Source: a virus
DNA length: 64,000 bases
IMG/VR virus record: IMGVR_UViG_3300018424_005577
Coordinates: 37,912-101,911 of that record
Direction: 5' to 3' (one strand)
Part shown: one piece after another, positions 8,901-40,442 of the stretch
How the letters are laid out: each line of letters begins with the position of its first letter
Numbering within the stretch: the first letter of the stretch is position 1
The notes under the pieces: generated by a model
What the model was told of the DNA's origin: nothing
Databases searched by the model: none
What the model saw: the letters and a program-made list of their open reading frames with translations, nothing else
Program-made: the position numbers and the translations under genes

Positions 8901-9393
8901 GTAATGCGGCATTTAATACTCTAGTATATTGCTCAAACCAATCTGGGTTACTTGGGTCATTCCATAGAATAGTTTGATTCTCTAAATTAATGTTATTACT
9001 GTCTGTTACTTCTTCAGTTGTAGATACTGAATCTATTTTTAGTAGGCCATTTGCACATCTATTTCTTTTAGGATTATACGATAGTAATCTTGCTAAACGA
9101 AGTACGCTCTCACGACGCTCTGCAAGTTCTAAATAGTTTTCACGAGCATTAAGATCAATACGGAAAGCAATGTTTTGACCGAGGTAGGCAATAAGGTCAA
9201 TAAGTGCAAGATATTCACTTGATTCTGTGTAGTCATTAAAGTCTTCTGGATAGTTTTCACGCAAGTATGCGATCATTGTACGACGAAGATTATCAAAGTC
9301 ATACGACTTAAAATCTGCGTTTCTAAAAGTTTGGTATACTCGCTTCCAATCTTCTGCAAGTAGTAGTCTATTTTGTCTATCTGTTGACGACAT
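5947..9393 (-). CDS. 6: Baseplate wedge protein gp6 (baseplate J-like)
   Basis: A 1148-aa protein whose N-terminus (DFKSYDFDNLRRTMIAYLRE, then YLALIDLIAYLGQNIAFRID and RESVLRLARLLSY) is the hallmark of gp6-type wedge proteins of T4-like marine phages. gp6 dimers form the inner ring that ties the six wedges together and drives baseplate opening. The family member in T4 is about 660 aa; this one is much longer, with a large beta-rich middle and a C-terminal domain containing RFFALENWDFGDKFYFSELS. It follows gp25, as is usual, and its stop overlaps the next start (TAATG). A late-promoter-like octamer and an AGAGG ribosome site lie in the short gap upstream. Identification is secure; the function of the extra length is unknown. 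Confidence 0.92.
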   Translation of the reverse strand: MSSTDRQNRLLLAEDWKRVYQTFRNADFKSYDFDNLRRTMIAYLRENYPEDFNDYTESSEYLALIDLIAYLGQNIAFRIDLNARENYLELAERRESVLRLARLLSYNPKRNRCANGLLKIDSVSTTEEVTDSNNINLENQTILWNDPSNPDWFEQYTRVLNAALPVNGTVGRPVKSGIINDIPTQQYRFNSTNTEVPAYSFTKTVDGRSTSFEIISTDITDAEIVEEAPFPGNNFAFLYRDDGQGSASSNTGFFVHFRQGTLDTGTFNVTNPSTSQVVAVDATNINQSDVWLYKLDSLGNEQELWTKVDSVEGNNIIYNSLSRNQRNIYSVLTRIEDRISLIFSDGVFGNLPQGNFRVYYRTSKNQRVLVTPDDMRGISIRIPYVSKAGKAETITLTLSLKYTVDNATVSESNASIKANAPATYYTQNRLITAEDYQIGPLTTSQEIVKAKAVNRTSSGISRYFDLVDATGKYSTTNLYGKDGSIYKDYLSLKQTFSFDTLTDIEGAIVNTIQPILGSIKVRNYYYDKYPRLFVDDLGSVWNQITSDTNSVTGYLTNPNSVKVKVGTFTGSNMKYVKLNSLLKFEPPAGKHFLNGELVDGEPDYRGGSTYKWTKVVSVSDDGTELLEDGTGPIVFNDVIPTGSRLTEIRTALPTALTADVKAQAVTQIFAYQTFGLRYDQVNGEWRIVTEDNLDISSEFSTGKTGDSTGQQLDSSWLLLFQTDGEKYTITYRAMRYVFESDQEVRFYYDSTDKIYNNKTGKIIKDKISILNINNKPDSLYPFNYDFDWEIVEEYRDAEGYVDSKKIQVSFFDSDDDGVVDNPDLFAEIVDEETNAIDKLVILKKITTTDGVNDFVYVDKDSINLKIFTSKATIGAISQYDAGTTFYYLEEDIFEVLNNNSELTVTSEYKAQIGRAGFKFQYLHAADQNSRIDPSASNIIDTYLLTRGYDSLFRQYLDDSINDKPLPPSSDDLFISYGSEINKIKSLSDEVIYHPVKYKVLFGDKAEADLQARFKIVKNPDLVINDNELKSNVIRAVNRFFALENWDFGDKFYFSELSSYVMNELSPDLVTFVIVPVQEDQSFGSLYEIKSEADEIFISAATVADIDIIDAITANRLKASGNIVTEVTTTNTGIQSGSFSSSNTGGLSY

Positions 9394-9415
9394 CGCCTAT
9401 TCCTCTAATATAAAC

Positions 9416-9423
9416 TATTTAGC
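9416..9423 (-). promoter_or_regulatory. Late promoter candidate (GCTAAATA)
   Basis: The minus strand reads GCTAAATA about 25 bases upstream of the gp6 start, inside the gp25-gp6 gap. It differs from the T4 late octamer TATAAATA at two positions and resembles ACTAAATA at 15246 and 20130. It could give gp6 and the downstream giant gene an additional late start. Confidence 0.45.
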
Positions 9424-9449
9424 GTATTTGATAAAGTGCGTAGTTTATT

Positions 9450-9896
9450 CTATGCAAGAAAGCCAGCGTTTTCATCAAATTTTAGCCTCATAGATTCTGA
9501 TATGTTATAAGGCAAATATGTTAAACTACACTCAATTTGAATTCCACTTTCATAAGTGTCTACTGTAATATTATCAACTGTTACTCTTGGGTCATAATTT
9601 ATAATTTTTGACACATTTTTTATGATTGCATCTTTAAGAGGTTCGGTTAATGGTTCGTACAGTAAATCCCAAACAATCGTTCCGAATGACGGGTCACTTA
9701 ACTTTTCGCCTTGTCTTATGTGAAAATGATTAATAATATCTTGTTTTATTAAGGCAATATCGTATAAAGTCCACGAAGTAGCATCAGGGTTTACTGTGCT
9801 TGTACCTACATATGCCCTACTTTCAGGAATTACTTTAGCCTTTTTACCTGAAGGGACAATAATTTGTTTGTATATGCTTTTTTCTAATGAACTCAT
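9450..9896 (-). CDS. 25: Baseplate wedge protein gp25
   Basis: A 148-aa protein with the gp25/lysozyme-like wedge signature: RQGEKLSDPSFGTIVWDLLY, then EPLTEPLKDAIIKNVSKI and DPRVTVDNI. gp25 (equivalent of P2 gpW and T6SS TssE) binds the gp6 dimer core and seeds sheath polymerisation at the baseplate. Length fits the family (about 130-150 aa). It lies between the gp5 spike and gp6 on the same strand, eight bases after the gp5 stop. An AGAGG-type ribosome site precedes the ATG. Confidence 0.9.
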   Translation of the reverse strand: MSSLEKSIYKQIIVPSGKKAKVIPESRAYVGTSTVNPDATSWTLYDIALIKQDIINHFHIRQGEKLSDPSFGTIVWDLLYEPLTEPLKDAIIKNVSKIINYDPRVTVDNITVDTYESGIQIECSLTYLPYNISESMRLKFDENAGFLA

Positions 9897-9903
9897 AACG
9901 TAT

Positions 9904-11409
9904 TTAACCTCTATTTGGTTCTTGTATTACTTCTGTGTTTTGCGCCGGAGACTCTTGAGCAGGAGCCTCGGCTCTCTGTGTATTCTTTGCAAACGTATCT
10001 GGAGTACCAATGCCAGGCTCGGCTCCATTTAAATGTTCATGACCGTCCCATGGCTCGTGTTCTGGCACACGTTGTGACGGTTCTGCGTCGGCTGCCTCTG
10101 ATGGTTCAGTTGCAGTAGGACCGTTTTGTTCTATTGGTCCTGTGAATGTATGTTTACCTGCGGTCCAATGTGTATTGGCAGCGCCTAATCTAGTGTCGCC
10201 GCCAGATTTTACGTCAACTAATCCGCCTGTTGTAAGTTTTCCGTCTGTACCTACTTTTATTTCCCAATTTGCATCAGCAGATTGAAAAATATTTGCGCCA
10301 GCTTTCATATGTATATCTGCGCCAGCTTCGAAATACATACTTCCATCTGCTTTAAAATTCATATTAGACTCAGTATGTACACTTACATCACTAGCGGCAT
10401 AAATGTCTACTTTACCATTACTGCTTAATTCTATCCATGCAGTGCCTCTGCTATTGCCTATATAGATAAAGTCTTCAGTATTATGCATTAATATCTGATG
10501 GCCAGTTCTAGTTCTTAGTCTAACTAATTCGTTATGAGGTCTAGTTACATCACCATCTGTTTCGCCACCTTCAGCATTTGCGTATTCTGGAGGTGTTGCA
10601 TCTGGGCCGCCTGGAGGACCTTTTCTAAGTAACGATGGATCGCCGTCATCAAATACTAGACTAGTTCCGCCTAGTCTATTATGAGCTGTTGTTGTTTGAG
10701 CAAATTTTTCTCCATACCTAGCTTTAGGTGCACCGTCTCTTCTATCTTGCGGTCCAGGTGTGCTTATACCAAAAACAGTACTAGGTACTTCTCGTCTAGC
10801 ACTAGAAGAAGTTAAACCTCTAAATTCATCTTCGAGTAATCCTTGTTCTTGCAAAAAATCTTGTGCATCTGTGTTGACTGGTTTAATAAATTTCGTTGCG
10901 TCTCTTCCGCTAGCTGTTTCTGTTTTTTTATTAAATTCTCCAACAGGCAATTTTTTAGAACTATCTTGATCATTAAACGTTGTTGCAGGAGCACCTGCCG
11001 GTAACATAAAATTAGTATATTCTTCTTGAATGCAACCTATCCAAAAGTACTGTCCGCCTTCTGCACAAATAACTAAAACCTGAGTTCCTATATCAGGAGG
11101 TACTGCCCAAAATCCGTAACTTTTTTGACTAAACTGATGTCCTCCGTTAGCTGTCAGCCCGTTATAAGGCGTAATACCATAAAACGGACTTAGGTAACTG
11201 CAAGGTACAGACTTACCCGGAGTATCTGGTGAGTTACCAGAACCTGCTTTAGTTTGTATTAATACTTCTAATCTACCTGCATATGTAGTATCTAAATGAT
11301 TAGTAACAACTCCAATAAACGGGCCAGGATTGTTAGCACCTGAGGTGTCAACAGCAGAGGATACTGTACGTGTTTCTTGTCCGGTATTTTGATTAACTGG
11401 GTCTGTCAT
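9904..11409 (-). CDS. 5: Central baseplate spike gp5, without lysozyme domain
   Basis: A 501-aa protein. Residues ~30-135 look like the gp5/VgrG OB-fold (PFIGVVTNHLDTTYAGRLEV, then YGFWAVPPDIGTQVLVIC). A polar linker follows, then ~290-430 contains short repeated beta segments typical of the trimeric spike helix (GHQILMHNTEDFIYIGNSRG, VDIYAASDVSVHTES, DIHMKAGANIFQSADANWEI). The tail has a His-rich motif, RVPEHEPWDGHEH. In T4, gp5 carries a lysozyme domain between the OB-fold and the beta-helix; none is recognisable here, so murein digestion must be done by another protein or not at all. The start forms a TAATG overlap context next to the hub stop, consistent with coupled translation. Confidence 0.85.
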   Translation of the reverse strand: MTDPVNQNTGQETRTVSSAVDTSGANNPGPFIGVVTNHLDTTYAGRLEVLIQTKAGSGNSPDTPGKSVPCSYLSPFYGITPYNGLTANGGHQFSQKSYGFWAVPPDIGTQVLVICAEGGQYFWIGCIQEEYTNFMLPAGAPATTFNDQDSSKKLPVGEFNKKTETASGRDATKFIKPVNTDAQDFLQEQGLLEDEFRGLTSSSARREVPSTVFGISTPGPQDRRDGAPKARYGEKFAQTTTAHNRLGGTSLVFDDGDPSLLRKGPPGGPDATPPEYANAEGGETDGDVTRPHNELVRLRTRTGHQILMHNTEDFIYIGNSRGTAWIELSSNGKVDIYAASDVSVHTESNMNFKADGSMYFEAGADIHMKAGANIFQSADANWEIKVGTDGKLTTGGLVDVKSGGDTRLGAANTHWTAGKHTFTGPIEQNGPTATEPSEAADAEPSQRVPEHEPWDGHEHLNGAEPGIGTPDTFAKNTQRAEAPAQESPAQNTEVIQEPNRG

Positions 11410-11411
11410 TA

Positions 11412-14105
11412 TTAGAATCCTATATTAGCACCGTTTTCTCTTGCTTGTAAAATATTATTAATTCTTTGTTCTTCATTTCTTCTTGCAATTATGCGCTGTG
11501 CCGCGGCTTCGTCGCCTGCGCCAGATTCAACATCAGCGCCGCTGTCGTCTGTGTTAGGATTTGCCGAGCCTGAACCGTTAGCATTTGTACCTCCAGTTCC
11601 TCCTTGACTTCCGCTTTCTGCGTCTGCACCGTTAAAGGTGCCTGCTGGGCTTGAAGGTGTTTCTGCTATAGATGCGCCTCCTGCACCTTCTACTACTACT
11701 TCGTTATTTTGACTTGTTGCATCAGCAGTTACGTCATCTTCTTGGTTTCTGCGTCTAATTGTTTTCATCTCTTGAGTAAATTTTCCGCCGTTAAATTTGT
11801 TTAAAACATAAATTACTTGATATAATCCGCTAAATGCTCCAATTGGTTTTGTACCCAATCCCGGGAAGTCCATAAAGCCATCTGCGCCAATATCTAAGGG
11901 AGTTCTAAAATTAATTAATACATCTACTTCACCGGATTGATAATCCATTGTACCATCAGTTGTAAGATTCATTGCTTCTGCAATTTCTCCTGCACTATAA
12001 TTTCCCATTCCGCTATCTGCAATATAATAAGGGTCTCCCCATATTTCTAAATCTGCACTAATCAAATCAACAGGGGAGTTAACTATTGCATCATTGAATG
12101 CTCTAGCAACTGCGGTCTCAGGATGATTTTGTACTGTTCCGCCTAAGCCTGTGTTAGATCTAGTACTTTGTCCTGTTGACGATGTTCCTGAGCTAGATCT
12201 GTTAGCATTATTTCCTACATTTCTACGATGCAATGGATGATCAGGAGCTTGTGTTAGAGAACTCGATCCAGCAGTTTGCTGGTCTTGTCCTAATTGTCCC
12301 ATATCACTTTGTATTGCTGTAAAGAAGGCGCCATCAACTTGTATGTCAAAGTTTATAATATCGTCGTTGTCTCCAGTATAGATATAATCATACTGTTTTA
12401 ATGCTTGACGTTTTAAATTTGATATACCCGGAGTAGGTGCTGTTGGCGAATTAATTCTTGAAGTATTAATTTTATAAGGAACTACTCTATACACATAAAC
12501 TTTTGGTGTCTTGCCTGTCTGATCAACATTTGCACTATCTGTTACATTGTAAACATCAGTTTCAATTCTAAACCAAGTTTTATTTCCGTTTTCATCAGAT
12601 GCTTCTGTAACAAATTGTCTACCATACTCCGAAAGTAAAACTAATTCTTCAATTATATCTTGTATTCTAGTTCCCTTTTTAAAGTTTATTCTACGGCCTT
12701 CGTCACTAATTTGCATAGGTCCTCTTGTAAATATACCTTCGTTATTTTCATCCCTCACAAATGCAGGCCTGCCAAAATACTGTTGTCCGCTATCGAGATA
12801 ACTTTTTACAATAGAAGAAGTTCCTATAGCATTCATGTTTGACCCTTCTTCTGCAAAATCACGAATACTTTCACCTATAGCACTACGTCTTACCGTAAGT
12901 CCAAGAATACTACTTAATTCTGCATCAAAATCATCAGGTATTTCTCCGCCTTGTATTCCAGATATTGTTTCGAAAATTTCTTGTCTTCTAGCATCGGTAA
13001 ATTGTCTAAATTCAGTTGCAGTAGTTGCACCGCTGTCCTCTACAATTTGTCCTAGTAATCCTTCAGTTTCAGAACTTCTTTGTGTAGGGAAAAGAATAAC
13101 AAACTGGTCAGCAGTAGAAACGCTTCCGGATTCTTCTTGTTCTACTTGTCTACTGTTTAACATTGTTGCTAAACTTTCTGCACCTGTTTGTAAAAACTGA
13201 CCTATTGTTTCACCTTTTATGTCTATATCTTCTTTAATAGTTTGAACAGAATCAGATAGAGCTTGTTCATGCCAGGGTATACCGTCAACTTGATATATAC
13301 TTCCTCCGGCACTTGTATTAAATGTTGCAAGAGCTAATTTCATTGGAAACATTCTTTTTGTTTGCGGAATAGAAATAGGATTGCCATTGTCGTCCCAACC
13401 TACAAATTCAACAGTAAGTAGATAAGGTGCTTCTAAATAATTTTTATGACCAGCTTGTAATGCGCTTATTTGTAATGTTTGTAAAAACATCCCCATCGAA
13501 TAAGGTTCCATTACTTCAAAAGATAAACTAGTTGCATTGGTTTGTTTAGTTTGCGGGGTAGGAGCAATTATTGTGTCAATTTGTACATTGTCAATAAAAT
13601 ATTCTGTAGTAATATTTCTTTCTTTTTCAAAAAGAGTTTTTACTTGATTGTTGCCTGTTCCGCCGCTTTTTAAAATAACAATACTAGGTCCGTTTTTTCT
13701 ATAAGTTGCATCAGGATAATTAATTTCAAAATTAGTTAATGGACCAAATGTGAAAATATAGTTATAACTTGCAAATTGTGCTAATTTGTTTTTTAAAGGT
13801 CCGCCTGTATATCCTATACCTTTAGCACCAGGTTGAACTCCATTGATGCCGCCGCTTCCAACTCTATTTCCGCCTGCACTAGTACTGCCCCTTCCGAAGT
13901 TAAGTAAACCTCCAAACGCATCTGAGATAGCACCTTTGAGCTGATTGGCAGCGCCTTCTACTGCACTGTTTATACCGTCAACAAAAATATTAGGAGAATT
14001 CCTAATACCATTTATATCTGTCTCAATTTGTCTTCCAAAATCTTCTACAGACTGACCTAGCTGTCTAGCTCTTGCTTCTAAGTTTTGGATTCTAAAATCT
14101 GCCAT
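11412..14105 (-). CDS. Baseplate hub protein, gp27-like by position
   Basis: An 897-aa protein immediately upstream of the gp5 spike, where the hub trimer protein (gp27) is expected. The middle region has YLLTVEFVGWDDNGNPISIP and DIDIKGETIGQFLQTGA, followed by a region with TRIQDIIEELVLLSEYGRQF and VYVYRVVPYKI, a pattern seen in large hub proteins of marine T4-like phages. gp27 in T4 is about 390 aa, so this protein is more than twice as long; the N-terminus is Gly-rich and the last ~120 residues are low-complexity (Gly/Asp/Ser/Asn-rich) ending in a charged helix. Assignment rests mainly on gene order. It may combine hub and tube-junction roles. Confidence 0.6.
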   Translation of the reverse strand: MADFRIQNLEARARQLGQSVEDFGRQIETDINGIRNSPNIFVDGINSAVEGAANQLKGAISDAFGGLLNFGRGSTSAGGNRVGSGGINGVQPGAKGIGYTGGPLKNKLAQFASYNYIFTFGPLTNFEINYPDATYRKNGPSIVILKSGGTGNNQVKTLFEKERNITTEYFIDNVQIDTIIAPTPQTKQTNATSLSFEVMEPYSMGMFLQTLQISALQAGHKNYLEAPYLLTVEFVGWDDNGNPISIPQTKRMFPMKLALATFNTSAGGSIYQVDGIPWHEQALSDSVQTIKEDIDIKGETIGQFLQTGAESLATMLNSRQVEQEESGSVSTADQFVILFPTQRSSETEGLLGQIVEDSGATTATEFRQFTDARRQEIFETISGIQGGEIPDDFDAELSSILGLTVRRSAIGESIRDFAEEGSNMNAIGTSSIVKSYLDSGQQYFGRPAFVRDENNEGIFTRGPMQISDEGRRINFKKGTRIQDIIEELVLLSEYGRQFVTEASDENGNKTWFRIETDVYNVTDSANVDQTGKTPKVYVYRVVPYKINTSRINSPTAPTPGISNLKRQALKQYDYIYTGDNDDIINFDIQVDGAFFTAIQSDMGQLGQDQQTAGSSSLTQAPDHPLHRRNVGNNANRSSSGTSSTGQSTRSNTGLGGTVQNHPETAVARAFNDAIVNSPVDLISADLEIWGDPYYIADSGMGNYSAGEIAEAMNLTTDGTMDYQSGEVDVLINFRTPLDIGADGFMDFPGLGTKPIGAFSGLYQVIYVLNKFNGGKFTQEMKTIRRRNQEDDVTADATSQNNEVVVEGAGGASIAETPSSPAGTFNGADAESGSQGGTGGTNANGSGSANPNTDDSGADVESGAGDEAAAQRIIARRNEEQRINNILQARENGANIGF

Positions 14106-30313: not shown

Positions 30314-31492
30314 ATGTCAGAACTACTAGAAAGTCGCTGGCAGGATACTAAAACAGCACTTGTTGAAGGCCTACAAGGCAACAAGAAAGCAGTTATGGAA
30401 ACAACTCTTGAAAATACTCGCAAGTATCTTTCAGAATCCGCAACTGCAGGTGCTACTTCTGCCGGTAATGTCGCAACTCTAAATAGAGTTATTCTCCCAG
30501 TTATTAGACGTGTAATGCCAACCGTTATTGCTAACGAGTTAGTTGGTGTTCAGCCTATGACTGGTCCAGTTGGTCAAATTCACACACTACGTGTGCGTTA
30601 TGCTGATGATTTCAACAGCACAAACGGTACTGACACAACAGCTGGTGATGAAGCATTATCACCATTCAAGATCGCTGAAGGATATTCAGGTGATGCCGCT
30701 ACAGATAGAGCCGCATCAACAGCAACACTAGAAGGTGCCGCTGGTAACAGAATGTCAATTCAGATCTTAAAACAAACTGTCGAAGCGAAAACCAGAAAGC
30801 TATCAGCTCGCTGGACTTTCGAAGCCGCGCAAGACGCTCAGTCACAGCATGGCATCGACGTTGAAGCTGAGATCATGGCAGCTCTTGCACAAGAAATTAC
30901 TGCTGAGATTGACCAAGAAGTACTTGCTTCACTTACCTCACTAGCTGGAGCCGCTACTGAAACTTATGATCAGGCAGCAGTTTCAGGTACAGCTACTTTT
31001 GTTGGTGACGAGCATGCCGCATTGGCAGTTCAAATCAACAGAGTATCAAACTTGATTGCACAGCGTACACGCAGAGGCGCAGGTAACTGGGCAGTTGTAA
31101 GTCCATTAGCACTTACAATTCTTCAGTCTGCAACAACTTCAGCGTTTGCACGTACAACAGAAGGTACTTTCGAAGCACCAACTAACACTAAAATGGTTGG
31201 TACATTGAACAACGCAATGAAAGTTTATGTTAACACATATGCTTCAGACAGCGCACCAGTACTTATTGGTTACAAAGGTTCAAGCGAATCAGACGCAGCC
31301 GCGTTCTACTGCCCATACATTCCATTGATGAGCAGTGGTGTTGTACTAGACCCAGGTACATTCGAGCCAGTAGTTAGCTTCATGACCAGATATGGTTATG
31401 TTGAGCTAACAAATACTGCTTCGTCACTTGGTAATGCGGCAGACTACTTAGGTAAAGTTGCTATCACTAACGGTAACGTTAGCTTTAGCTAA
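30314..31492 (+). CDS. 23: Major capsid protein gp23 (short form)
   Basis: A 392-aa protein. RRVMPTVIANELVGVQPMTG followed by PVGQIHTLRVRY is the gp23 signature; YIPLMSSGVVLDPGTFEPVV and SFMTRYGYVEL mark the end of the HK97-type domain. L39-S40-E41 fits the gp21 cleavage site, leaving about 351 residues. It is clearly shorter than T4 gp23 (521 aa), implying that the T4 insertion domain is absent or reduced. AAGGAG precedes the start, and an intrinsic terminator follows the stop. Confidence 0.96.
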   Translation: MSELLESRWQDTKTALVEGLQGNKKAVMETTLENTRKYLSESATAGATSAGNVATLNRVILPVIRRVMPTVIANELVGVQPMTGPVGQIHTLRVRYADDFNSTNGTDTTAGDEALSPFKIAEGYSGDAATDRAASTATLEGAAGNRMSIQILKQTVEAKTRKLSARWTFEAAQDAQSQHGIDVEAEIMAALAQEITAEIDQEVLASLTSLAGAATETYDQAAVSGTATFVGDEHAALAVQINRVSNLIAQRTRRGAGNWAVVSPLALTILQSATTSAFARTTEGTFEAPTNTKMVGTLNNAMKVYVNTYASDSAPVLIGYKGSSESDAAAFYCPYIPLMSSGVVLDPGTFEPVVSFMTRYGYVELTNTASSLGNAADYLGKVAITNGNVSFS

Positions 31493-31516: not shown

Positions 31517-31546
31517 AAAAAGGGCGGAGTTTACTTCGCCCTTTTT
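31517..31546 (+). terminator. Intrinsic terminator after gp23
   Basis: The stem AAAAAGGGCG (31517-31526) pairs with CGCCCTTTTT (31537-31546), with inner pairs GAG/CTT around a TTTA loop, and ends in a T run. It separates the capsid operon from the small genes that follow. Confidence 0.88.
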
Positions 31547-31595
31547 TATTGACTAAAATTAATGATTTTACGTATGACTTTTGCTTTATAATATG

Positions 31596-31603
31596 TTTAA
31601 ATA
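31596..31603 (+). promoter_or_regulatory. Possible promoter of the pqqA-like gene (late-type TTTAAATA; TATAAT nearby)
   Basis: TTTAAATA is one mismatch from the T4 late octamer and would give a leader of about 35-40 bases. A TATAAT at 31587-31592 also lies here but its -35 (TGATTT, 18 bases away) is poor. Either would start transcription after the gp23 terminator. Confidence 0.4.
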
Positions 31604-31646
31604 ATACTGTAGTACGTATTATTAACCTTTAAGAAGGAGAAAACAT

Positions 31647-31718
31647 ATGTGGTCAAAGCCAACATACACAGAAATGCGTTTTGGTTTCGAAGTAACAATG
31701 TATGTAATGAACAAGTAG
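31647..31718 (+). CDS. pqqA: PqqA-like peptide (PQQ precursor peptide homologue)
   Basis: A 23-codon ORF with an AAGGAG ribosome site seven bases before ATG. The peptide starts [11 protein letters not shown] and continues [12 protein letters not shown]. Bacterial PqqA peptides are also typically 23 aa, start MWxKP, and carry the G-x-E-V-T-x-Y core; here Glu15 and Tyr19, the two residues that PqqE cross-links and from which pyrroloquinoline quinone is made, fall at exactly the same positions as in Klebsiella PqqA. No pqqB-E genes are in the window, so it would rely on host PqqD/PqqE. It stands alone between two intrinsic terminators just after the capsid gene. Either it boosts host PQQ supply or it decoys the pathway; this is inference. 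Confidence 0.88.
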
Positions 31719-31757: not shown

Positions 31758-31777
31758 AACCCGCTTCGGCGGGTTTT
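31758..31777 (+). terminator. UUCG-loop intrinsic terminator after pqqA-like gene
   Basis: AACCCGC (31758-31764) pairs with GCGGGTT (31769-31775) around a TTCG tetraloop, followed by TT. The stable tetraloop and short T tract make a compact terminator isolating the pqqA-like gene from the riboswitch unit. Confidence 0.8.
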
Positions 31778-31867: not shown

Positions 31868-31966
31868 ATGAGCAACTATACCCTTTGGTGCTACAAGCAA
31901 CTAATCAAACAGCACCAAATCAACAAAATTAATAATATACTTGCCAAAAAAATGTATTTTTGGTAA
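31868..31966 (+). CDS. Riboswitch-controlled small peptide (32 aa)
   Basis: ATG at 31868, seven bases after AGGAG, opens a 32-codon ORF: MSNYTLWCYKQLIKQ, then a basic Asn/Lys-rich middle and an end in AKKMYFW. It is basic and amphipathic with aromatic ends. Downstream-peptide RNAs are known for preceding short ORFs of 17-100 aa in cyanobacteria, phages and marine metagenomes, so size and placement fit. In cyanobacteria some such peptides regulate nitrogen metabolism; I see no clear similarity to those and assign no function. The ORF ends just before a sigma-70 promoter. Confidence 0.65.
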   Translation: MSNYTLWCYKQLIKQHQINKINNILAKKMYFW

Positions 31967-32009: not shown

Positions 32010-32265
32010 TAAGCTACAAAGACTTAGCTAGTCGATGTATATAGTGCAAGGAAGAGGCGTTTACCAGAGCGTCGAACTTGGCTGTTTAGGGGTGGTACCC
32101 AGGCGTGGTAGTAGAAATACGCTGTGTCACATCGCTCTACCGAGCGGAAACAGGCTCCCTGGTTTCAGAATGGTATCTGCGGCGAGGGGTTGGAGGTATA
32201 ACCGAATCCTCCCTATTTTGCTTATTCCAATTAAAGGCTTACAAGGGAGACTTTGTAAGCCTTTC
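32010..32265 (+). ncRNA. Candidate structured RNA 2 with own promoter and terminator
   Basis: About 255 bases between a sigma-70 promoter and a 12-bp terminator. By my count 32041-32220 is about 53% G+C. Foldbacks: AGCTA/TAGCT (32012-32016 with 32025-32029); an outer stem GCGT..ACGC with ACCA/TGGT inside it (about 32058-32066 with 32106-32122) enclosing GGGT/ACCC; CGCTC/GAGCG near 32133-32146; CAGG/CCTG near 32151-32161; and an H-type pseudoknot, GGTT/AACC (32188-32191, 32200-32203) with GGAGG/CCTCC (32192-32196, 32208-32212). An open frame through it lacks a ribosome site at its first ATG. I found no tag ORF, CCA end or T-arm, so tmRNA is not supported, though marine myophages of this kind can carry ssrA near a glutamine riboswitch. 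Confidence 0.65.
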
Positions 32266-32267
32266 TT
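32233..32267 (+). terminator. Intrinsic terminator of candidate RNA 2
   Basis: AAAGGCTTACAA (32233-32244) pairs perfectly with TTGTAAGCCTTT (32253-32264), eight-base loop, followed by CTTCTTATTT. Twelve pairs make this the longest terminator stem in the window. Confidence 0.85.
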
Positions 32268-32274
32268 CTTATTT

Positions 32275-32282
32275 GATAAATA
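32275..32282 (+). promoter_or_regulatory. Late promoter candidate GATAAATA for the fibre block
   Basis: Lies directly after the RNA 2 terminator and 92 bases before the ATG at 32374. The predicted ~85-base leader contains two hairpins: CCTC/GAGG (32302-32305 with 32311-32314) and GCGG/CCGC (32321-32324 with 32328-32331). Confidence 0.6.
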
Positions 32283-32373
32283 CATTTGTCAAGAAGTAGA
32301 GCCTCTTGATGAGGACTTATGCGGTACCCGCCGCGTAGACCTAGAACGTCAAATATTTTATAAGGAGAAAAAA

Positions 32374-32790
32374 ATGGGACGTCCAGTTAATAAAGACAAA
32401 ATCGGATACGGCGCTGGTCGTATCGCAGTAACAAGACACTTTTTTACAGGTGCTTCAGAAGCAACAACAGCCGCACATATTATTAGACAGGTTAGTGATA
32501 ATCGTTTTGTAGTGCGTTTAGACTCTAATGCAGGCGACGATTCTGCAGATGAAATTCTACAATTAACCAATCTTGGTTCTGGAAATTTAACAGAAGGTAC
32601 TTTTGAAATTGATGCATACGGAACTGACTCAACTACATACCAAGTAACAAAGATTCGCAACAGAACTGTTCAACTAGAAGCAGGCGGAACAGAATTTAAT
32701 GCAGTTTATGGCATTGGTAACATTCCAGAAGTATTAGAAACAGGTACAAATCCTGCAAATACTCTAGCAGTAGCGTTACCGGCACAATAA
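32374..32790 (+). CDS. Virion structural protein, unknown (138 aa)
   Basis: The reading frame is open back to 32035, but TAAGGAG at 32361-32367 places the start at ATG 32374; the upstream 113 codons lie in the RNA 2 and leader region. The protein starts MGRPVNKDKIGYGAGRIAVT, is beta-rich (NRFVVRLDSNAGDDS, YQVTKIRNRTVQLEAGGTEF) and has no signal peptide. Similar MGRPxNK proteins follow the capsid region in marine T4-like phages as virion components, so a head-decoration or fibre-associated role is inferred. It leads a run of structural genes on the same strand. Confidence 0.65.
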   Translation: MGRPVNKDKIGYGAGRIAVTRHFFTGASEATTAAHIIRQVSDNRFVVRLDSNAGDDSADEILQLTNLGSGNLTEGTFEIDAYGTDSTTYQVTKIRNRTVQLEAGGTEFNAVYGIGNIPEVLETGTNPANTLAVALPAQ

Positions 32791-32823: not shown

Positions 32824-34089
32824 ATGTCAAGAGTTGTAAACGTATATAACGGTGATTATAAAGTAGCAGTACAAGATGGTGGAAACATCACTCTTGACAC
32901 AGGTAACCTCGAAGGTAACGTCATTGTAACAGGTAATTTAGAAGTTAAAGGTACTACAACTACTGTAGAATCAACTGAAGTTACTATTACAGATAATGTT
33001 ATTGTCTTAAACAATGACGTGCCTGGTGCAGGAATTCCTGCTTCGTTAGGATATGTGTCTGGTATAGAAATTGCAAGAGGATCACTAAGTGATGCACAAT
33101 GGTTTTTTGATGAACAAATATCATGGACATTAGGCGGAACAAGCGGAGACGGAACCTGGTCAGCTAAATGGAAAAACGGTCAACGTCTTCCAATTTCAAC
33201 ACCAGGAATTGTAGCAGGTGGAAATTTTTATGTTAACACAGGCAATGGTGTAATTAGTGTCACTAATACTGTAGACTACGAAGAAGGTATTTGGAATTAT
33301 ACTAACGGAGTAATTACACCTACAGCAGATGGTGTTGCAATAGATGATGACCATATACCTAATGCAAGAGCATTAATTGACTACGTTGACTTTGTTGTTA
33401 ACGCAGAAGTTAGTAGCAGAATTGCTGAAGGCAACACAGAAGTTGAAGCAGTAGACGAAACTCATAGTATTGATCAAATTGTAAGTATTACATCAGACGG
33501 GTTGACAACTGTTATACAAACAAATGGACAACACGGTTATACTGTAGCAGATACTGTAGATATTTTTGGAGTCAACGGTAATGGTGATTTAATAGAAAAT
33601 CTTAACGGTACAAATATTGTAATTACTGAAATTGTTAGTTCTACCATTCTACGAGTACAAGTAGACACAACTGGAGGTGACGCGGCAAATTATGTAGGTG
33701 GCGGCACTATAAGAAAAGTTGGATACGTTCCTAGTGAAGTAAAAATTACAGTAAGCGGTATAAATGTTGCAAGTTTTTATGATGATAGATTAGAAGTAGC
33801 AGACTTTAAGTTACAGGATAATGTTCTATCTGTAGAAGCAAGTAACCAAGACTTGGAAATTGCCGCTCCTGGTACAGGTAGTGTTAAGATTAGAGATGTA
33901 CTTGAACTACCATCAACGCCGCATGACGACGATGGATCAGTTGATCCTATATTGCCCGACAGCGGAGTTAAGTTGTGGGCAAAATCACCATCATCTGGAG
34001 ACGTAGGCTTATACTACAAAAATAGTAACGATACTTCAGGAGAATTAATAAGTAAAAACAGAGCATTGCTTTTTAGCATGTTATTTTAA
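32824..34089 (+). CDS. Tail-fibre-like structural protein (421 aa)
   Basis: A beta-rich fibre protein. Residues ~20-65 hold adhesin-like repeats (NITLDTGNLEGNVIVTGNLE, VTITDNVIVLNNDV), then an ARALIDYVDFVVN helix and a repeat-like ANYVGGGTIRKVGYVPSEV. The end (DSGVKLWAKSPSSGDVGLYY, ELISKNRALLFSMLF) resembles phage fibre termini. The N-terminal repeat type is shared with the 1815- and 2434-aa proteins downstream, so these probably evolved by module duplication. A role in the distal tail or fibre network is inferred. Confidence 0.65.
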   Translation: MSRVVNVYNGDYKVAVQDGGNITLDTGNLEGNVIVTGNLEVKGTTTTVESTEVTITDNVIVLNNDVPGAGIPASLGYVSGIEIARGSLSDAQWFFDEQISWTLGGTSGDGTWSAKWKNGQRLPISTPGIVAGGNFYVNTGNGVISVTNTVDYEEGIWNYTNGVITPTADGVAIDDDHIPNARALIDYVDFVVNAEVSSRIAEGNTEVEAVDETHSIDQIVSITSDGLTTVIQTNGQHGYTVADTVDIFGVNGNGDLIENLNGTNIVITEIVSSTILRVQVDTTGGDAANYVGGGTIRKVGYVPSEVKITVSGINVASFYDDRLEVADFKLQDNVLSVEASNQDLEIAAPGTGSVKIRDVLELPSTPHDDDGSVDPILPDSGVKLWAKSPSSGDVGLYYKNSNDTSGELISKNRALLFSMLF

Positions 34090-34100
34090 GGTAAGAAAAA

Positions 34101-34439
34101 ATGGCAATAGTAAACGCACAATTAACTACAACGCAATTAGACATTTTAACAGTACCAGGCTCTGGAGTTAATGGCTATGCAATTACAAACATACTAGTTT
34201 GTAATACAGGAGCTGCCGATGCAAGTTTTGACATGCATTTTATACCTTCAGGCGATGCGTTAAACAGTAAAGTGACTATGGTTGTAAATGAACTAAATCT
34301 TCCTCCAGGAGAAACTTTTACATTTGATAGTGAAAAGGTTGTGTTAAGTCCAGGAGATAAAGTTGCTTTTGTTGCTGAGCCTGATATAGGTTCATCACTA
34401 ACAGATTTAGCGGCAACAGTAAGTTATTTGGAAGTATAA
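34101..34439 (+). CDS. Small beta-sandwich structural protein, paralogue 1
   Basis: A 112-aa protein: LTVPGSGVNGYAITNILVCN, then LPPGETFTFDSEKVVLSPGD and an ending in VSYLEV. The same plan (N-terminal strands, a LPxG turn, a late hydrophobic VSY/IVS strand) recurs in the genes at 47897 and 62101, each beside a fibre gene. A small capping or adaptor subunit of the fibres is inferred. No enzyme motifs. Confidence 0.6.
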   Translation: MAIVNAQLTTTQLDILTVPGSGVNGYAITNILVCNTGAADASFDMHFIPSGDALNSKVTMVVNELNLPPGETFTFDSEKVVLSPGDKVAFVAEPDIGSSLTDLAATVSYLEV

Positions 34440-34440
34440 A

Positions 34441-34962
34441 ATGAGATTATTAAAAGCGCAAAGCACTAATCTAAGATCGATATACGGCAAAGGTGTCAAA
34501 TACGATATAAATGATATTGTTGAACTAGATAGCAACAAGGCAGTAATACTGCCTAAAGGCACAACAGCAGAGCGTAATAGTTATACTCCAGTAGACGGTC
34601 AAATGCGTTACAATACAGATGACGCAAGATTTGAAATGTACGAAGACGGTGCTTGGATAGGTGTAAGAAGTACTGCACCTGCAAGCATCGGCATCACAGC
34701 TCAAAATTTAGGAACAGGTGATGCGTCTGAACAATACTTTGGCCCGCTTGCAAGTGGCGATCCTGACTTTCCTGTACCTATAGCAGAATCACACATAATT
34801 GTTATAGTAGGCAACGTAATCCAAATTCCTGTTACAAACTATGTATTAGTACAAAACCCTGCCGGCAAGCCAGCTGGATGGTATCTAGATTTTGGTTCAT
34901 CACCATTATCAGTTCCAGATGTAGGCGAAACAGTAACAGCCATACATAACTTCGACAAATAA
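34441..34962 (+). CDS. Small fibre-associated protein with RYNT module
   Basis: A 173-aa protein containing LPKGTTAERNSYTPVDGQMR followed by YNTDDARFEMYEDGAW, a module repeated in the C-termini of the giant fibre proteins and in the ORF at the right edge. The second half (VGNVIQIPVTNYVLVQNPAG) is a separate beta domain. It starts one base after the preceding stop, so expression is probably coupled. Likely a fibre tip or adaptor component. Confidence 0.6.
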   Translation: MRLLKAQSTNLRSIYGKGVKYDINDIVELDSNKAVILPKGTTAERNSYTPVDGQMRYNTDDARFEMYEDGAWIGVRSTAPASIGITAQNLGTGDASEQYFGPLASGDPDFPVPIAESHIIVIVGNVIQIPVTNYVLVQNPAGKPAGWYLDFGSSPLSVPDVGETVTAIHNFDK

Positions 34963-34965
34963 TTC

Positions 34966-34973
34966 AATAAATA
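34966..34973 (+). promoter_or_regulatory. Late promoter candidate AATAAATA
   Basis: One mismatch from TATAAATA, 22 bases before the GTG start of the first giant fibre gene; an AAGGAG ribosome site follows at 34981-34986. Confidence 0.5.
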
Positions 34974-34994
34974 CTGTGTCAAGGAGATTATTGA

Positions 34995-37900
34995 GTGGCA
35001 CAAGTCGGTAGAATATCTGGTCCATTACTACAAGAAAATTTAATACGTAACGGTATTGATTTAGCCTTTCGTAATGATTTAAGCACTACAGAACTTTTAT
35101 ATTTAGATGTTAACAATGACAAAATAAGTGTTAACAAAAATTCTCCTACAGCAGAACTAGATGTAGACGGAACACTTGGTGCAACCAACCTATTAACTGA
35201 TGCAACTTCTACTACAATTAATAATCTCACATTTACAAACAATAGAATTGATATTTTCAATACAGCAGTAGATGATAAAATTTATTTAGATGCCCAAGAA
35301 GCAATAGTAGTAAACAATCTACAAACAGAACAATTTTATATTTACGATAATAAAATTACAACAAAAGATAGTAATGCAAATATAGATTTATTTGCAAACG
35401 GAACAGGTACTGTTGAAATACTATCTAACCTTAATGTTGATGGAAATCTACATGCTACAGGAAATCTAACATTTGACGGCAATATAACATTTGGTGATAC
35501 ATTATCACAAGATACTGTAACATTTTCCGCAGATATCGACAGCGATATTATACCTGATCAAACTGGTGTTTTCAATTTAGGACAAAATGGTAAACGCTGG
35601 GGAGAAATGCATGTTAATTTAGTAAATGGAGAATTAATAGATGTTTCCGAATATAATGCAGGCGGTGTATACATATCTTTTAGGCCAGGCAATATTTTTT
35701 ATGTTGCACAAAACGGTGATGACACAAATGTAGGCGACACACAACAAGGACCTTTTAGAACCATTAAACATGCGTTAGATGTAGCAGATGCAAGTGTTAG
35801 TGGTCCTGTAACAATCTACGTTTATCCAGGTGAATATCAAGAACAAACACCTCTAGTAGTTCCAACAAATGTCACTGTTGTAGGCGCTGATATGCGCAAT
35901 ACTGTGATTATGCCAGACAGTGCAAATCAAAGTGAAGATATTTTTCATCTAAACGGCGAAACAACTATACAAAATTTAACATTAAAAGACTTTTTCTACG
36001 ATAGCATAAATGATAAAGGATATGGTTTTAGGTTTGCTCCTAATACAACAGTATCAACTAGAAGTCCTTACATTCAAAACTGTACTGTAATTACCCAGGG
36101 ATCGAGTACACCTACTGAAGATCCTAGAGGTTTTTCACAAGCAGATGCAGGTAAAGGTGCGTTAGTTGACGGCGCAGATGTAACTGGTGCAAGTCAAGAA
36201 GCAAGTATGCTATTCCATAGTTGTACATTTATTACTCCTGGTGTAGATGCTCTTACAATGACAAATGGTGTAAGAGTTGAATGGTTAAATTGTTTTACAT
36301 ACTTTGCCGATAGAGGCCTTTACGCAGTAGACGGTGCTACAGGTCATTTAAGCACAGACGGAAGCACTATATTATACGGTGCAGAATTACGCTCAATTGG
36401 AAGTGCTAACATATACGGAAATTACGGTGCAGTAGCAGATGGTTCTAATACATTAATGTATCTAATACAGCACAATATGGCTTACATCGGAGCAGGAAAA
36501 TTTGTAGACAACGATCCTAGTAGAAGTGTTGAATCGCAACAAACAGTTGAACTTAACAGCGGTAGAATAAGATATCAAGTAACTGATCACAACGGAAAAT
36601 ATTCTGTAGGAGATAATTTTTATATAGACTTTGAAACAGGTGAAACATCAGTAGACATTTCGAGTTTGACTGCTAATGGTATAACAGGAATTATTATTAC
36701 AGATCCTGTAAGTGGTAGGGTTACAAGAGTTACTCCTACCAACATAGAAACAGGCAATCTTCAATTTTTTGCAAATAGATTAGAATCTAAATCTGGTGAT
36801 GTAATTGTAAGATCTTATACTAACACAATTAATCTAAATAAAAATACAAATATTACAGATAATCTTTCTATAAGTGGGAATTTAAGTTTCGACGGTAGTT
36901 TAAATGTACTAGGAAATGAAGCAACAGACACCTTAAGTCTTAATGTAGATATAGATCAAGATTTTAATCCTCACGAAACCTTAATATATTCACTAGGTAC
37001 AGACACAAAAAGATGGAAAAAGATTTTTACATCTCAAGTAAATGCAGACGGTATTACATTTTTTGATAATGTTGTAACTACAAATGATACAAACGCTAGT
37101 TTAGAACTGAGAGCTAGTGGAACAGGCAATGTATATGTACCTGCAAACAACATTTTAGTGACTAATGATTTTGATGTATTACAAACTAGCAACTTAACAA
37201 ATGTTTCTATAATAGGTGATCTAAGTACAAGCGGACATATTAATCTAGCATCCAACTTTACTACAGAAAATGCTATTCTACAACAAGGATTAATTGTAGG
37301 AGCAAGTGCTCAATTTGAAGAAATACTTGTAGACACAAATGTTATTACAACTACAAACACAAATGCAGATCTAGAATTACGTGCTAATGGCACAAGTACA
37401 GTCAATTTACAAGAAAATGTAGATGTTACAAATAATCTCAGTGCAAAAGATATTAGTGTATCAAATACAACTATTACACAGAATGTTACTTCCGATAATG
37501 CTAACATTGGCAATTTAGAAATAAACGACAATTATATTGAAACTAAAAGCATTAATGGAAATTTAACATTAACATCATTAAAAAACATTACTATACCTAG
37601 CAACAACACTGTGCTAGGACAACAACTTACAGTAAACGGTACAAGCATTCTAAATAGTAATTTAAGCATCACAGGCGATATAACACAAATAGGTAATACT
37701 ACACAAACTGGCAATACTACTGTGCTAGGAGAATTTACTGTTGGCGATGTTTATATCGAAGATAATTTTATTACAACTACTAATTCTAATAGTAATTTAG
37801 AACTACGTACAAACAGTACTGGTGAAGTTTTAATACCTAATAACGATGTACAAATTAATAAAGATTTAACAGTAAGCACAGATACGGATTTACAAAGTAC

Positions 37901-40442
37901 TGCAATTACTGGTTCGTTAACACACACTGGCAATAGAAATCAAACTGGCAATACTACTGTGCTAGGAGAATTTACTGTTGGCGATGTTTATATCGAAGAT
38001 AATTTTATTACAACTACTTCAGGTAATCTAACATTAAGTGCAACAGGTGACATTAATGTTGATACTAATGATGTAGAAATTGCTCAAGATTTAACTGTAA
38101 GCGGCGCTACAAGTTTACAAGATACTACTATTACTGGCACAGTTACACAAACGGGTAATAGAACGCAAACTGGTAATTTAGACATTGCTGGAGAAATTAG
38201 TAACGGAAACATATTAATAGAAGATAATTTTATCACTACTACTAATTCTAATAGCGATTTAGAATTACGTGCTAATGGTGCAGGCGTAATTTTAATACCT
38301 AACAATAATATACAAATTAACAATAATCTAACTGTAAGCACAGACACAGATTTACAAGATACTACAATCACTGGCACAGTAACACACGTTGGAGATACTA
38401 CACATACTGGTAATATCACACAAGGTGGTGAATTAACAGTTGATAATGTTTACGTTGAAGATAACTTTATTACAACTACCTCTGGTAATTTAATATTAGA
38501 ATCAGCTGGCACTGGAACAATTAATGTTGACAGCAACGATGTAGAAATTGCTCAAGGCTTAACTGTAAGTGGAGCAACTAGTTTACAAGGTACTACAATT
38601 ACTGGCACTCTAACACACGTTGGTAATAGAACGCAAACTGGTAACTTAGATGTTGCTGGAGAAATTAGCAACGGCAATATTCTAATTGAAGACAACTTTA
38701 TTACTACTACAACTAGTAATTCAGATTTAGAGCTAAGAGCTAATGGCACAGGTAGAGTTATAATAGATCCCGACGATCCTATTACAATAGAAAACAATCT
38801 AAGTGTTACAGGAAATTTATTTTACACAGGCGCATTGACTATAAATGGGGATGTAGTAGTAGGTCCGAGTACACAAGACGGTAGTTTAACCGTTAGTGAA
38901 AATCTTACAATATCTGGCGAATTAGATGTAAGTGGATTTGCACAATTTGAAGAAATACTTATAAACAATAACTTTATAACAACAACAAGCACAAACGCAG
39001 ATCTTGAATTAAGAGCTTCTGCTACAGGAAATGTTGTTTTACAAGAAGAAGTTGAAGTTACAAATAATCTAAATGTAGGCGCAACACTATCTACTCAAAA
39101 TGCAAATATTGTTGATAGTGTTACAAGCAATACTTTTGATAGTTCTGGAATAACATTTACTGCAAATACAATCACTCAAAAAAATACAATATCTAATCTA
39201 GAAGTTAAAGCGAGCGGAACAGGTATAGTTACATCAAAGAATAGTGTTGTTATTGACAATGATCTAACAATAAATGGCAATACAAACATTCAAAATTTAG
39301 AATTAGCTGGCTTAACACAAACAGGTAATACAGTTCAAACTGGAGACTTGACTGTAACAGGAAATGTTACTGTAAATGATTTATTTGTCTCAGATGCAAG
39401 TTTTGATTTCGAAAAGTATGTGATAGGCGGAAATTTAATAACAACTAAAACAAACGAAGATGCAATACTTAAAGCCGCAGGTACAGGAAACATATTATTA
39501 AATGAAGGACTGACAATTGGTGGCAATCTTACTGCAAATGTAATATCTTCGGACAGTGTTTACATTGATGATAGTGTTTCGTTAGAAGTTTTAGAAGGCA
39601 GTACTGACATACAAATGTTTGACAATGTTATTACTACTTCTTTAAGCAATAGTGATTTAGAATTAAGGACAAACGGAACTGGTTCTATAACATTTGATGA
39701 TTTAGAATTCAATCAAACAACTCTTACAACACAAAATAATTTTACTTTTGCTACAGATAATCTTACAGCATCAGCATCTACAACTATACAATTACCAAAA
39801 GGAAGCTCTGCACAAAATCCTAATACCCAAGGTGCTATAAGATTTGATACAGATACAAGTACATTTGAAGGTTATAATACTAGTGTAATAGGATTTGGTG
39901 GAGTATACTCGGATGACAAACAAACTGCAATTACTGTAAACAACAGCGATGATATTAATATTTTTGTTGGTGGCTTTACCGAAGATTCTGCAGGACAAGT
40001 AGCACAAGTTTCGGGACAACAAATTAGACTACATAGTCTACAAGTAGATGATATTAATATTGATCAAAATGTTATCTCAACAAATGTAAGCAATAGTAAT
40101 CTTGAACTTACTCCAAATGGAACTGGAGTTATAACTACAGGAAACTTTAGTATTAGCGCAAATGTAATTACAAACATCGAGCCTAATGCTAACATAGAAA
40201 TAAAAGGTACAGGACAACAATGGGTTGTATTTGAAGGCAATTCAGCAATCAAGTTTCCTTCAGGCGATACAGCATCTAGACCAAGCAATCCAGTTGAAGG
40301 AATGACAAGACACAATACTGATTCTAATGAATTAGAAACCTGGATAGGAAATCAATGGCGAACTTCTGCAGGGGAATTTGCTAGTATTTCAGAAGCACAA
40401 ATGGAAGAAGAAGCGTTCGTTCAGACGCTAATCTACGGCTAA
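34995..40442 (+). CDS. Giant repeat-rich tail-fibre protein A (1815 aa)
   Basis: The start is GTG, eight bases after AAGGAG. Order: N-terminal VGRISGPLLQENLIRNGIDL module shared with protein B; a parallel beta-helix (~235-530) opening FYVAQNGDDTNVGDT and including TVSTRSPYIQNCTVITQG; then about a dozen tandem adhesin-like repeats of ~70-80 aa (~640-1560) with the pattern NFITTTNSNSDLELRANGTG, NNLTVS, TGTVTHTGNTTQTGN; then two RYNT-like modules near the C-terminus (GAIRFDTDTSTFEGYN, GMTRHNTDSNELETW). The repeats predict a long beta-solenoid shaft. No S74 chaperone end is present, so trimer folding may depend on another protein. A 78-base perfect direct repeat lies inside the gene. Confidence 0.8.
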   Translation: MAQVGRISGPLLQENLIRNGIDLAFRNDLSTTELLYLDVNNDKISVNKNSPTAELDVDGTLGATNLLTDATSTTINNLTFTNNRIDIFNTAVDDKIYLDAQEAIVVNNLQTEQFYIYDNKITTKDSNANIDLFANGTGTVEILSNLNVDGNLHATGNLTFDGNITFGDTLSQDTVTFSADIDSDIIPDQTGVFNLGQNGKRWGEMHVNLVNGELIDVSEYNAGGVYISFRPGNIFYVAQNGDDTNVGDTQQGPFRTIKHALDVADASVSGPVTIYVYPGEYQEQTPLVVPTNVTVVGADMRNTVIMPDSANQSEDIFHLNGETTIQNLTLKDFFYDSINDKGYGFRFAPNTTVSTRSPYIQNCTVITQGSSTPTEDPRGFSQADAGKGALVDGADVTGASQEASMLFHSCTFITPGVDALTMTNGVRVEWLNCFTYFADRGLYAVDGATGHLSTDGSTILYGAELRSIGSANIYGNYGAVADGSNTLMYLIQHNMAYIGAGKFVDNDPSRSVESQQTVELNSGRIRYQVTDHNGKYSVGDNFYIDFETGETSVDISSLTANGITGIIITDPVSGRVTRVTPTNIETGNLQFFANRLESKSGDVIVRSYTNTINLNKNTNITDNLSISGNLSFDGSLNVLGNEATDTLSLNVDIDQDFNPHETLIYSLGTDTKRWKKIFTSQVNADGITFFDNVVTTNDTNASLELRASGTGNVYVPANNILVTNDFDVLQTSNLTNVSIIGDLSTSGHINLASNFTTENAILQQGLIVGASAQFEEILVDTNVITTTNTNADLELRANGTSTVNLQENVDVTNNLSAKDISVSNTTITQNVTSDNANIGNLEINDNYIETKSINGNLTLTSLKNITIPSNNTVLGQQLTVNGTSILNSNLSITGDITQIGNTTQTGNTTVLGEFTVGDVYIEDNFITTTNSNSNLELRTNSTGEVLIPNNDVQINKDLTVSTDTDLQSTAITGSLTHTGNRNQTGNTTVLGEFTVGDVYIEDNFITTTSGNLTLSATGDINVDTNDVEIAQDLTVSGATSLQDTTITGTVTQTGNRTQTGNLDIAGEISNGNILIEDNFITTTNSNSDLELRANGAGVILIPNNNIQINNNLTVSTDTDLQDTTITGTVTHVGDTTHTGNITQGGELTVDNVYVEDNFITTTSGNLILESAGTGTINVDSNDVEIAQGLTVSGATSLQGTTITGTLTHVGNRTQTGNLDVAGEISNGNILIEDNFITTTTSNSDLELRANGTGRVIIDPDDPITIENNLSVTGNLFYTGALTINGDVVVGPSTQDGSLTVSENLTISGELDVSGFAQFEEILINNNFITTTSTNADLELRASATGNVVLQEEVEVTNNLNVGATLSTQNANIVDSVTSNTFDSSGITFTANTITQKNTISNLEVKASGTGIVTSKNSVVIDNDLTINGNTNIQNLELAGLTQTGNTVQTGDLTVTGNVTVNDLFVSDASFDFEKYVIGGNLITTKTNEDAILKAAGTGNILLNEGLTIGGNLTANVISSDSVYIDDSVSLEVLEGSTDIQMFDNVITTSLSNSDLELRTNGTGSITFDDLEFNQTTLTTQNNFTFATDNLTASASTTIQLPKGSSAQNPNTQGAIRFDTDTSTFEGYNTSVIGFGGVYSDDKQTAITVNNSDDINIFVGGFTEDSAGQVAQVSGQQIRLHSLQVDDINIDQNVISTNVSNSNLELTPNGTGVITTGNFSISANVITNIEPNANIEIKGTGQQWVVFEGNSAIKFPSGDTASRPSNPVEGMTRHNTDSNELETWIGNQWRTSAGEFASISEAQMEEEAFVQTLIYG
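37704..37781 (+). repeat. Perfect 78-bp direct repeat, copy 1
   Basis: Identical to 37941-38018 and 237 bases (79 codons) upstream, in the same frame. Neighbouring repeat units have diverged more in DNA, so this pair looks like a recent duplication or gene conversion. Confidence 0.9.
37941..38018 (+). repeat. Perfect 78-bp direct repeat, copy 2
   Basis: Second copy of the repeat at 37704-37781; both encode the GEFTVGDVYIEDNFITTT segment of the shaft repeat. Confidence 0.9.
38201..38278 (+). repeat. Near-identical segment shared with protein B (copy in A)
   Basis: About 78 bases match 46099-46176 in protein B with a single difference, although the two genes are otherwise clearly diverged. 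Confidence 0.75.

Follow-up and report, generated by a model that had tools for sequence, protein, structure and literature searches.

A pqqA gene following the major capsid gene in a jumbo T4-like phage: a probable substrate-only auxiliary gene of phages infecting methylotrophs

The locus described here raises the question of why a phage would carry pqqA, the gene for the peptide precursor of pyrroloquinoline quinone (PQQ), next to its major capsid gene, and whether the peptide serves PQQ synthesis or some other end. The window, that is, the whole stretch of DNA analysed (64,000 nucleotides), corresponds to positions 37912-101911 of the 101,911-base IMG/VR record IMGVR_UViG_3300018424_005577 (G000), which contains a single pqqA copy. 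A preliminary description, made from the letters and open reading frames, had named the short ORF as a full-length, 23-residue PqqA. Profile searches support this: the ORF scores 41.8 bits against PF08042 (cut-off 21.1, E 9.9e-11) and 45.5 bits against TIGR02107 (cut-off 20, E 4.4e-12), and with both scores at about twice the cut-offs the match is not due to chance. Glu15 and Tyr19, the residues of PqqA that are cross-linked by PqqE, are in register, with three residues between them. PHROGs holds no family for PqqA.

Table 1. Features of the pqqA region and of a second viral contig with dehydrogenase genes (window positions unless stated)
Feature	Position	Strand	Remarks
Major capsid protein gp23, gene 5' of pqqA	30314-31492	+	phrog_138, E 1.9e-101
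Intrinsic terminator between gp23 and pqqA	31517-31546	+	-21.5 kcal/mol, z -4.4
Candidate T4-type late promoter GTTTAAATAATA	31595-31606	+	Function inferred
Inverted repeat AATAATAC-N8-GTATTATT, pqqA leader	31600-31623	+	Seen in the sequence
Ribosome-binding site AAGGAG	31634-31639	+	Seen in the sequence
pqqA	31647-31718	+	Start ATG at 31647; 23 codons and TAG (31716-31718); E15, Y19
Intrinsic terminator 3' of pqqA, AACCCGC-UUCG-GCGGGUU-UU	about 31758-31777	+	z -2.7
Glutamine riboswitch RF01739	31794-31841	+	50.4 bits (cut-off 35); slot neighbour, outside the pqqA unit
32-aa ORF 3' of the glutamine riboswitch	31868-31966	+	Related peptide in L090
Methanol dehydrogenase, then formate dehydrogenase alpha subunit	L354 7990-12784 (G003 about 33990-38783)		

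The gene begins 154 bases beyond the gp23 stop codon. The ribosome site and the terminators on either side, the latter taken earlier as a sign of independent expression, were both recovered (Table 1), and the placement of pqqA as an isolated transcription unit is supported. The leader carries GTTTAAATAATA, which differs by one base from the T4 late promoter TATAAATA and is also present 5' of pqqA in the relatives L090, L112/L121 and L412. TATAAATA itself occurs six times on the plus strand of the window and not at all on the minus strand, and a sigma-70 promoter scan near pqqA gave nothing better than chance. The phage pqqA is probably transcribed late, together with the capsid genes. In L412 an inverted repeat of other sequence occupies the matching leader position, and in L090 the same terminator element lies 3' of pqqA.

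The host-type gene lies within a true phage genome, as seen from the portal, head protease and gp23 genes upstream of pqqA in the record and from the genomes of isolate methylophages. The gp23 of the window is 68-73% identical to that of phages of 350-470 kb, such as CBB, GAP32 and Phosso, which marks G000 as a fragment from the genome of a jumbo T4-like phage. In the 356 kb relative G001, with a gp23 identity of 85-87%, pqqA is present as well, about 74 kb away from gp23. Among close relatives the slot behind gp23 is variable. It holds a same-strand pqqA followed by the riboswitch in the window and in L412, the two units in reverse order in L090, a pqqA convergent with gp23 in L112/L121, or other cargo, such as an IscU-like gene in L377 (named by sequence alone). 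The glutamine riboswitch (RF01739) is found behind gp23 in L376, L412 and L435 as well. Of the gp23 relatives, 61 have 450 or more bases of sequence past the gene, and pqqA occupies this position in four of them; the pqqA unit is therefore accessory and mobile. The placement after gp23, to which attention had been drawn earlier, is thus real in the window but is shared by only some members of the phage clade and is not general.

Three further observations concern these genomes. A manA RNA motif (RF01745) lies 3' of the glutamine riboswitch in the jumbo phage relative L412 (7442-7646), and a freshwater-2 RNA motif (RF02980; 54.8 bits, cut-off 49.9) is located at 32300-32376 (+) of the window, within the ORF at 32035-32790. 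A giant ORF of about 5,300 codons runs from 2-5947 (-) of the window into L130 (8752-18840); an apparent ORF desert at 1-5946 was rejected, since this ORF extends past the left end of the window.

A tblastn search of PqqA against 50,697 phage records matched Venkman, P19250A, MEP301, MEP401, MEP402 and four Melnitz genomes. The remaining matches were a hostless podovirus from a spring and a mislabelled bacterial operon; 'Acinetobacter phage MD-2021a' was dropped as a phage pqqA, as its matches are a bacterial pqqABCDE operon. No pqqA was found in the Klebsiella and Pseudomonas phages of this set, the hosts of which are often PQQ makers. The earlier OM43 phage isolates are Venkman, MEP301 and Melnitz (PMC10580990); with MEP401 and MEP402, all five published OM43 phage isolates carry pqqA, and so does the freshwater LD28 phage P19250A (KX815270, 28085-28153). 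Gene callers miss pqqA: the isolate-phage copies are mostly unannotated, an annotated ORF on the opposite strand overlaps pqqA in Melnitz and the podovirus, and one or other of these conditions applies to most published methylophage genomes. Pattern scans of IMG/VR found pqqA on at least 185 contigs, and with the isolates and the window there are at least 192 viral copies, lying between 128 different neighbour gene-family pairs.

Such scattered positions, together with the multicopy state of pqqA in hosts, could mean that this tiny gene is simply picked up often and does nothing for the phages that carry it. Selection on the viral copies makes a neutral passenger of this kind highly unlikely. 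Conservation was tallied with an N-terminal pattern over residues 1-13 only, ignoring residues 14-23. Every complete copy among the matches listed (121 of 121) encodes 23 residues with E15 and Y19, so that no decayed copy was seen and both residues are conserved across these phage copies; two further copies are incomplete, as the sequence that carries them ends within the gene. Also among the matches listed, 168 distinct DNA versions encode 72 peptides, with pS 0.62, pN 0.108 and pN/pS 0.17, which together with the heavy synonymous change points to strong purifying selection; the ratio is somewhat favourable because the pooled set includes copies picked by an E15/Y19 pattern. In addition, a terminator-like site lies within 140 nt 3' of pqqA in 88 of 177 copies (among the matches listed) vs 6 in shuffles, and the former count is a lower bound, because this simple scan fails to pick up the terminator known from the window itself. 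An idle passenger would also sit poorly with the presence of pqqA in every published Methylophilaceae phage isolate checked.

The enzymes of the pathway appear to be left to the host. PqqD and PqqE, the partners of PqqA named in the preliminary description, were sought in G000 (a 102 kb fragment) and in the isolate methylophages, and none scored over cut-off; a complete pqqABCDE operon is likewise absent from both. In host genomes PqqD was found in all three tested, and PqqE exceeded the cut-off in five of six, the sixth being a partial single-cell genome, so that candidate hosts with both proteins do exist. These six genomes contain 3, 1, 2, 12, 6 and 2 pqqA copies. Methylophilaceae are reported to have 3-12 pqqA genes and usually one pqqBCDE set (PMC4109929), which makes precursor dosage look important in this family.

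On the minus strand of record positions 748-11800 (L129), G000 encodes about seven radical SAM/SPASM-like proteins, over or near the Pfam cut-off, adjoining glycosyltransferase-like genes. They could in principle take the phage PqqA as their own substrate and form a different modified peptide. This is very improbable: none of them is PqqE (best 18.5 bits vs a cut-off of 381), the phage record lacks PqqD, the PqqE model matches nothing in the isolate methylophages despite their pqqA, and the phage peptides belong to the PqqA type seen in hosts.

That type also points to the host. Genome contigs were scanned with the pattern E-[ML]-R-x-G-F-E-V-T, and among the matches listed this type comes mostly from Methylophilaceae; the VMNK ending occurs, again among the matches listed, in genomes titled Methylophilaceae, unclassified Betaproteobacteria or Proteobacteria. 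Judged by its PqqA, the G000 phage most likely infects a member of the Methylophilaceae. It is conceivable that the gene serves another PQQ-dependent enzyme or, the phage clade being broad, a host outside this family, since similar PqqA is found in some other Betaproteobacteria and other viral types exist (L357 and L358-L366). This is unlikely for the window, given that nearly all genomes with its PqqA type (among the matches listed) are Methylophilaceae, where PQQ serves methanol dehydrogenase.

As regards the other types, IMG/VR pattern scans found one locus with alpha-type and 10 with gamma-type PqqA. L357 (2715-2801) encodes an alphaproteobacterial-type PqqA (MKWSAPIVQEVCVGMEVTSYESAEIDTFN) adjoining a phage DNA polymerase gene on a viral contig, a hint that carriage of pqqA may extend to phages whose hosts are other PQQ makers. 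Four viral contigs (L358, L362, L364 and L366) share another type (MWEKPTYLDLRLGFEVTLYVSIR) and have the same gene downstream. L360 and L361, with Klebsiella-type PqqA, were dropped as probably host flank of proviruses.

On one 72 kb viral contig, G003, pqqA is joined by a methanol dehydrogenase gene, which scores 608 bits against a cut-off of 480, and by a gene for the alpha subunit of formate dehydrogenase (Table 1); ribonucleotide reductase, GroEL and tail-fibre-like genes are present too. It resembles the Lake Baikal viruses VP_266 and VP_139 and may be a relative. G003 also has a curli CsgG-like gene and a DnaK fragment (L354). Methanol dehydrogenase was not found in the other 13 records tested, and pqqA alone is therefore the common case.

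Two roles had been proposed for the phage peptide: supply of precursor to a PQQ-making host, or the tying up of PqqD/PqqE. As such a decoy, the peptide would block PQQ synthesis in the host or turn it aside, perhaps to slow host metabolism or to free SAM and an iron-sulphur enzyme. Full-length PqqA can bind PqqD, and small phage peptides often inhibit host enzymes. However, a decoy would not need the reacting residues, and their retention in all 121 complete copies listed is left unexplained; a peptide open to cross-linking would itself enter PQQ synthesis, and the pairing of pqqA with methanol dehydrogenase in G003 points to more PQQ, not less. A decoy is accordingly very unlikely, and supply to a methanol-oxidizing host fits best.

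On this supply reading, phage pqqA is probably a functional, substrate-only auxiliary metabolic gene that keeps PQQ synthesis and the methanol dehydrogenases running during infection. PqqA is consumed, one per PQQ, and PqqB-E are enzymes. In a long infection, host transcription would fall while the host PqqB-E enzymes persist, so that the precursor would be lost before the enzyme. Late transcription of the phage pqqA could then replenish the sole consumed part of the pathway, the host enzymes would process the phage peptide, and continued PQQ synthesis would keep the XoxF/Mxa methanol dehydrogenases active, providing power for virion production. Carriage of pqqA alone would be the least costly remedy for the phage. 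The latent period of MEP401/402 is 17-20 h (PMC10580990). Such a mechanism would account for the carriage of pqqA only, with E15/Y19 fixed and terminators of its own, and for the association of the gene with methylotrophs, given that none of the Klebsiella or Pseudomonas phages searched had it.

Some points weigh against precursor supply. The hosts of the gp23 relatives are very diverse bacteria, and in most of these relatives the slot has no pqqA. PQQ might also last long enough that it does not become limiting within a single infection cycle. In addition, since several pqqA copies are already present in hosts, any benefit to the phage must, it is assumed, come from timing or dosage. With somewhat less assurance than for the function itself, the evidence leans towards pqqA being present in nearly all phages of methanol oxidizers, acquired again and again yet overlooked, and towards its defining a substrate-only auxiliary class in which the phage provides a single consumed peptide and the host all the enzymes.

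Contrary to the preliminary description, which knew of no described role of a viral PqqA, one was proposed in 2020: a Lake Baikal viral PqqA found with methanol dehydrogenase was assigned the same supply role (Coutinho et al., 2020; PMC7678222). Viral pqqA is also listed in a 2026 paper (PMC13188868). The Baikal study states that P19250A encodes none of the reported genes (PMC7678222), which is incorrect as regards pqqA. In the OM43 phage literature (PMC8024684, PMC10580990, PMC9004378 and PMC8163748), pqqA is not named as a phage gene. Within the open-access literature, what appears to be new is the breadth of occurrence, the conservation seen in an unbiased test, the slot after gp23 and the corrected statement on P19250A.

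The Baikal T4-like methylophage VP_266 resembles the present case in its viral PqqA, T4-type phage, predicted Methylophilaceae host and proposed role. It differs in also having methanol dehydrogenase, whereas G000, from a jumbo phage, has pqqA alone behind gp23 and no PQQ dehydrogenase in 102 kb. Compared with host PqqA (TIGR02107/PF08042, dispersed copies in Methylophilaceae), the phage copy shares family, length, reacting residues and the C-terminal VMNK type, but lacks pqqBCDE and is preceded by a candidate promoter of phage type. The same principle, in which the phage supplies a fast-consumed part and the host the rest, applies to cyanophage psbA and other auxiliary metabolic genes of phages; these encode enzymes or subunits, whereas the product of pqqA is a peptide that serves as substrate in a modified-peptide pathway.

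If the supply reading is correct, PQQ would be precursor-limited during infection, a prediction testable on cultured OM43 phages. Methanol oxidation is part of carbon cycling in the oceans, and several separate phage lineages on abundant marine and freshwater methylotrophs would then hold the smallest handle on it.
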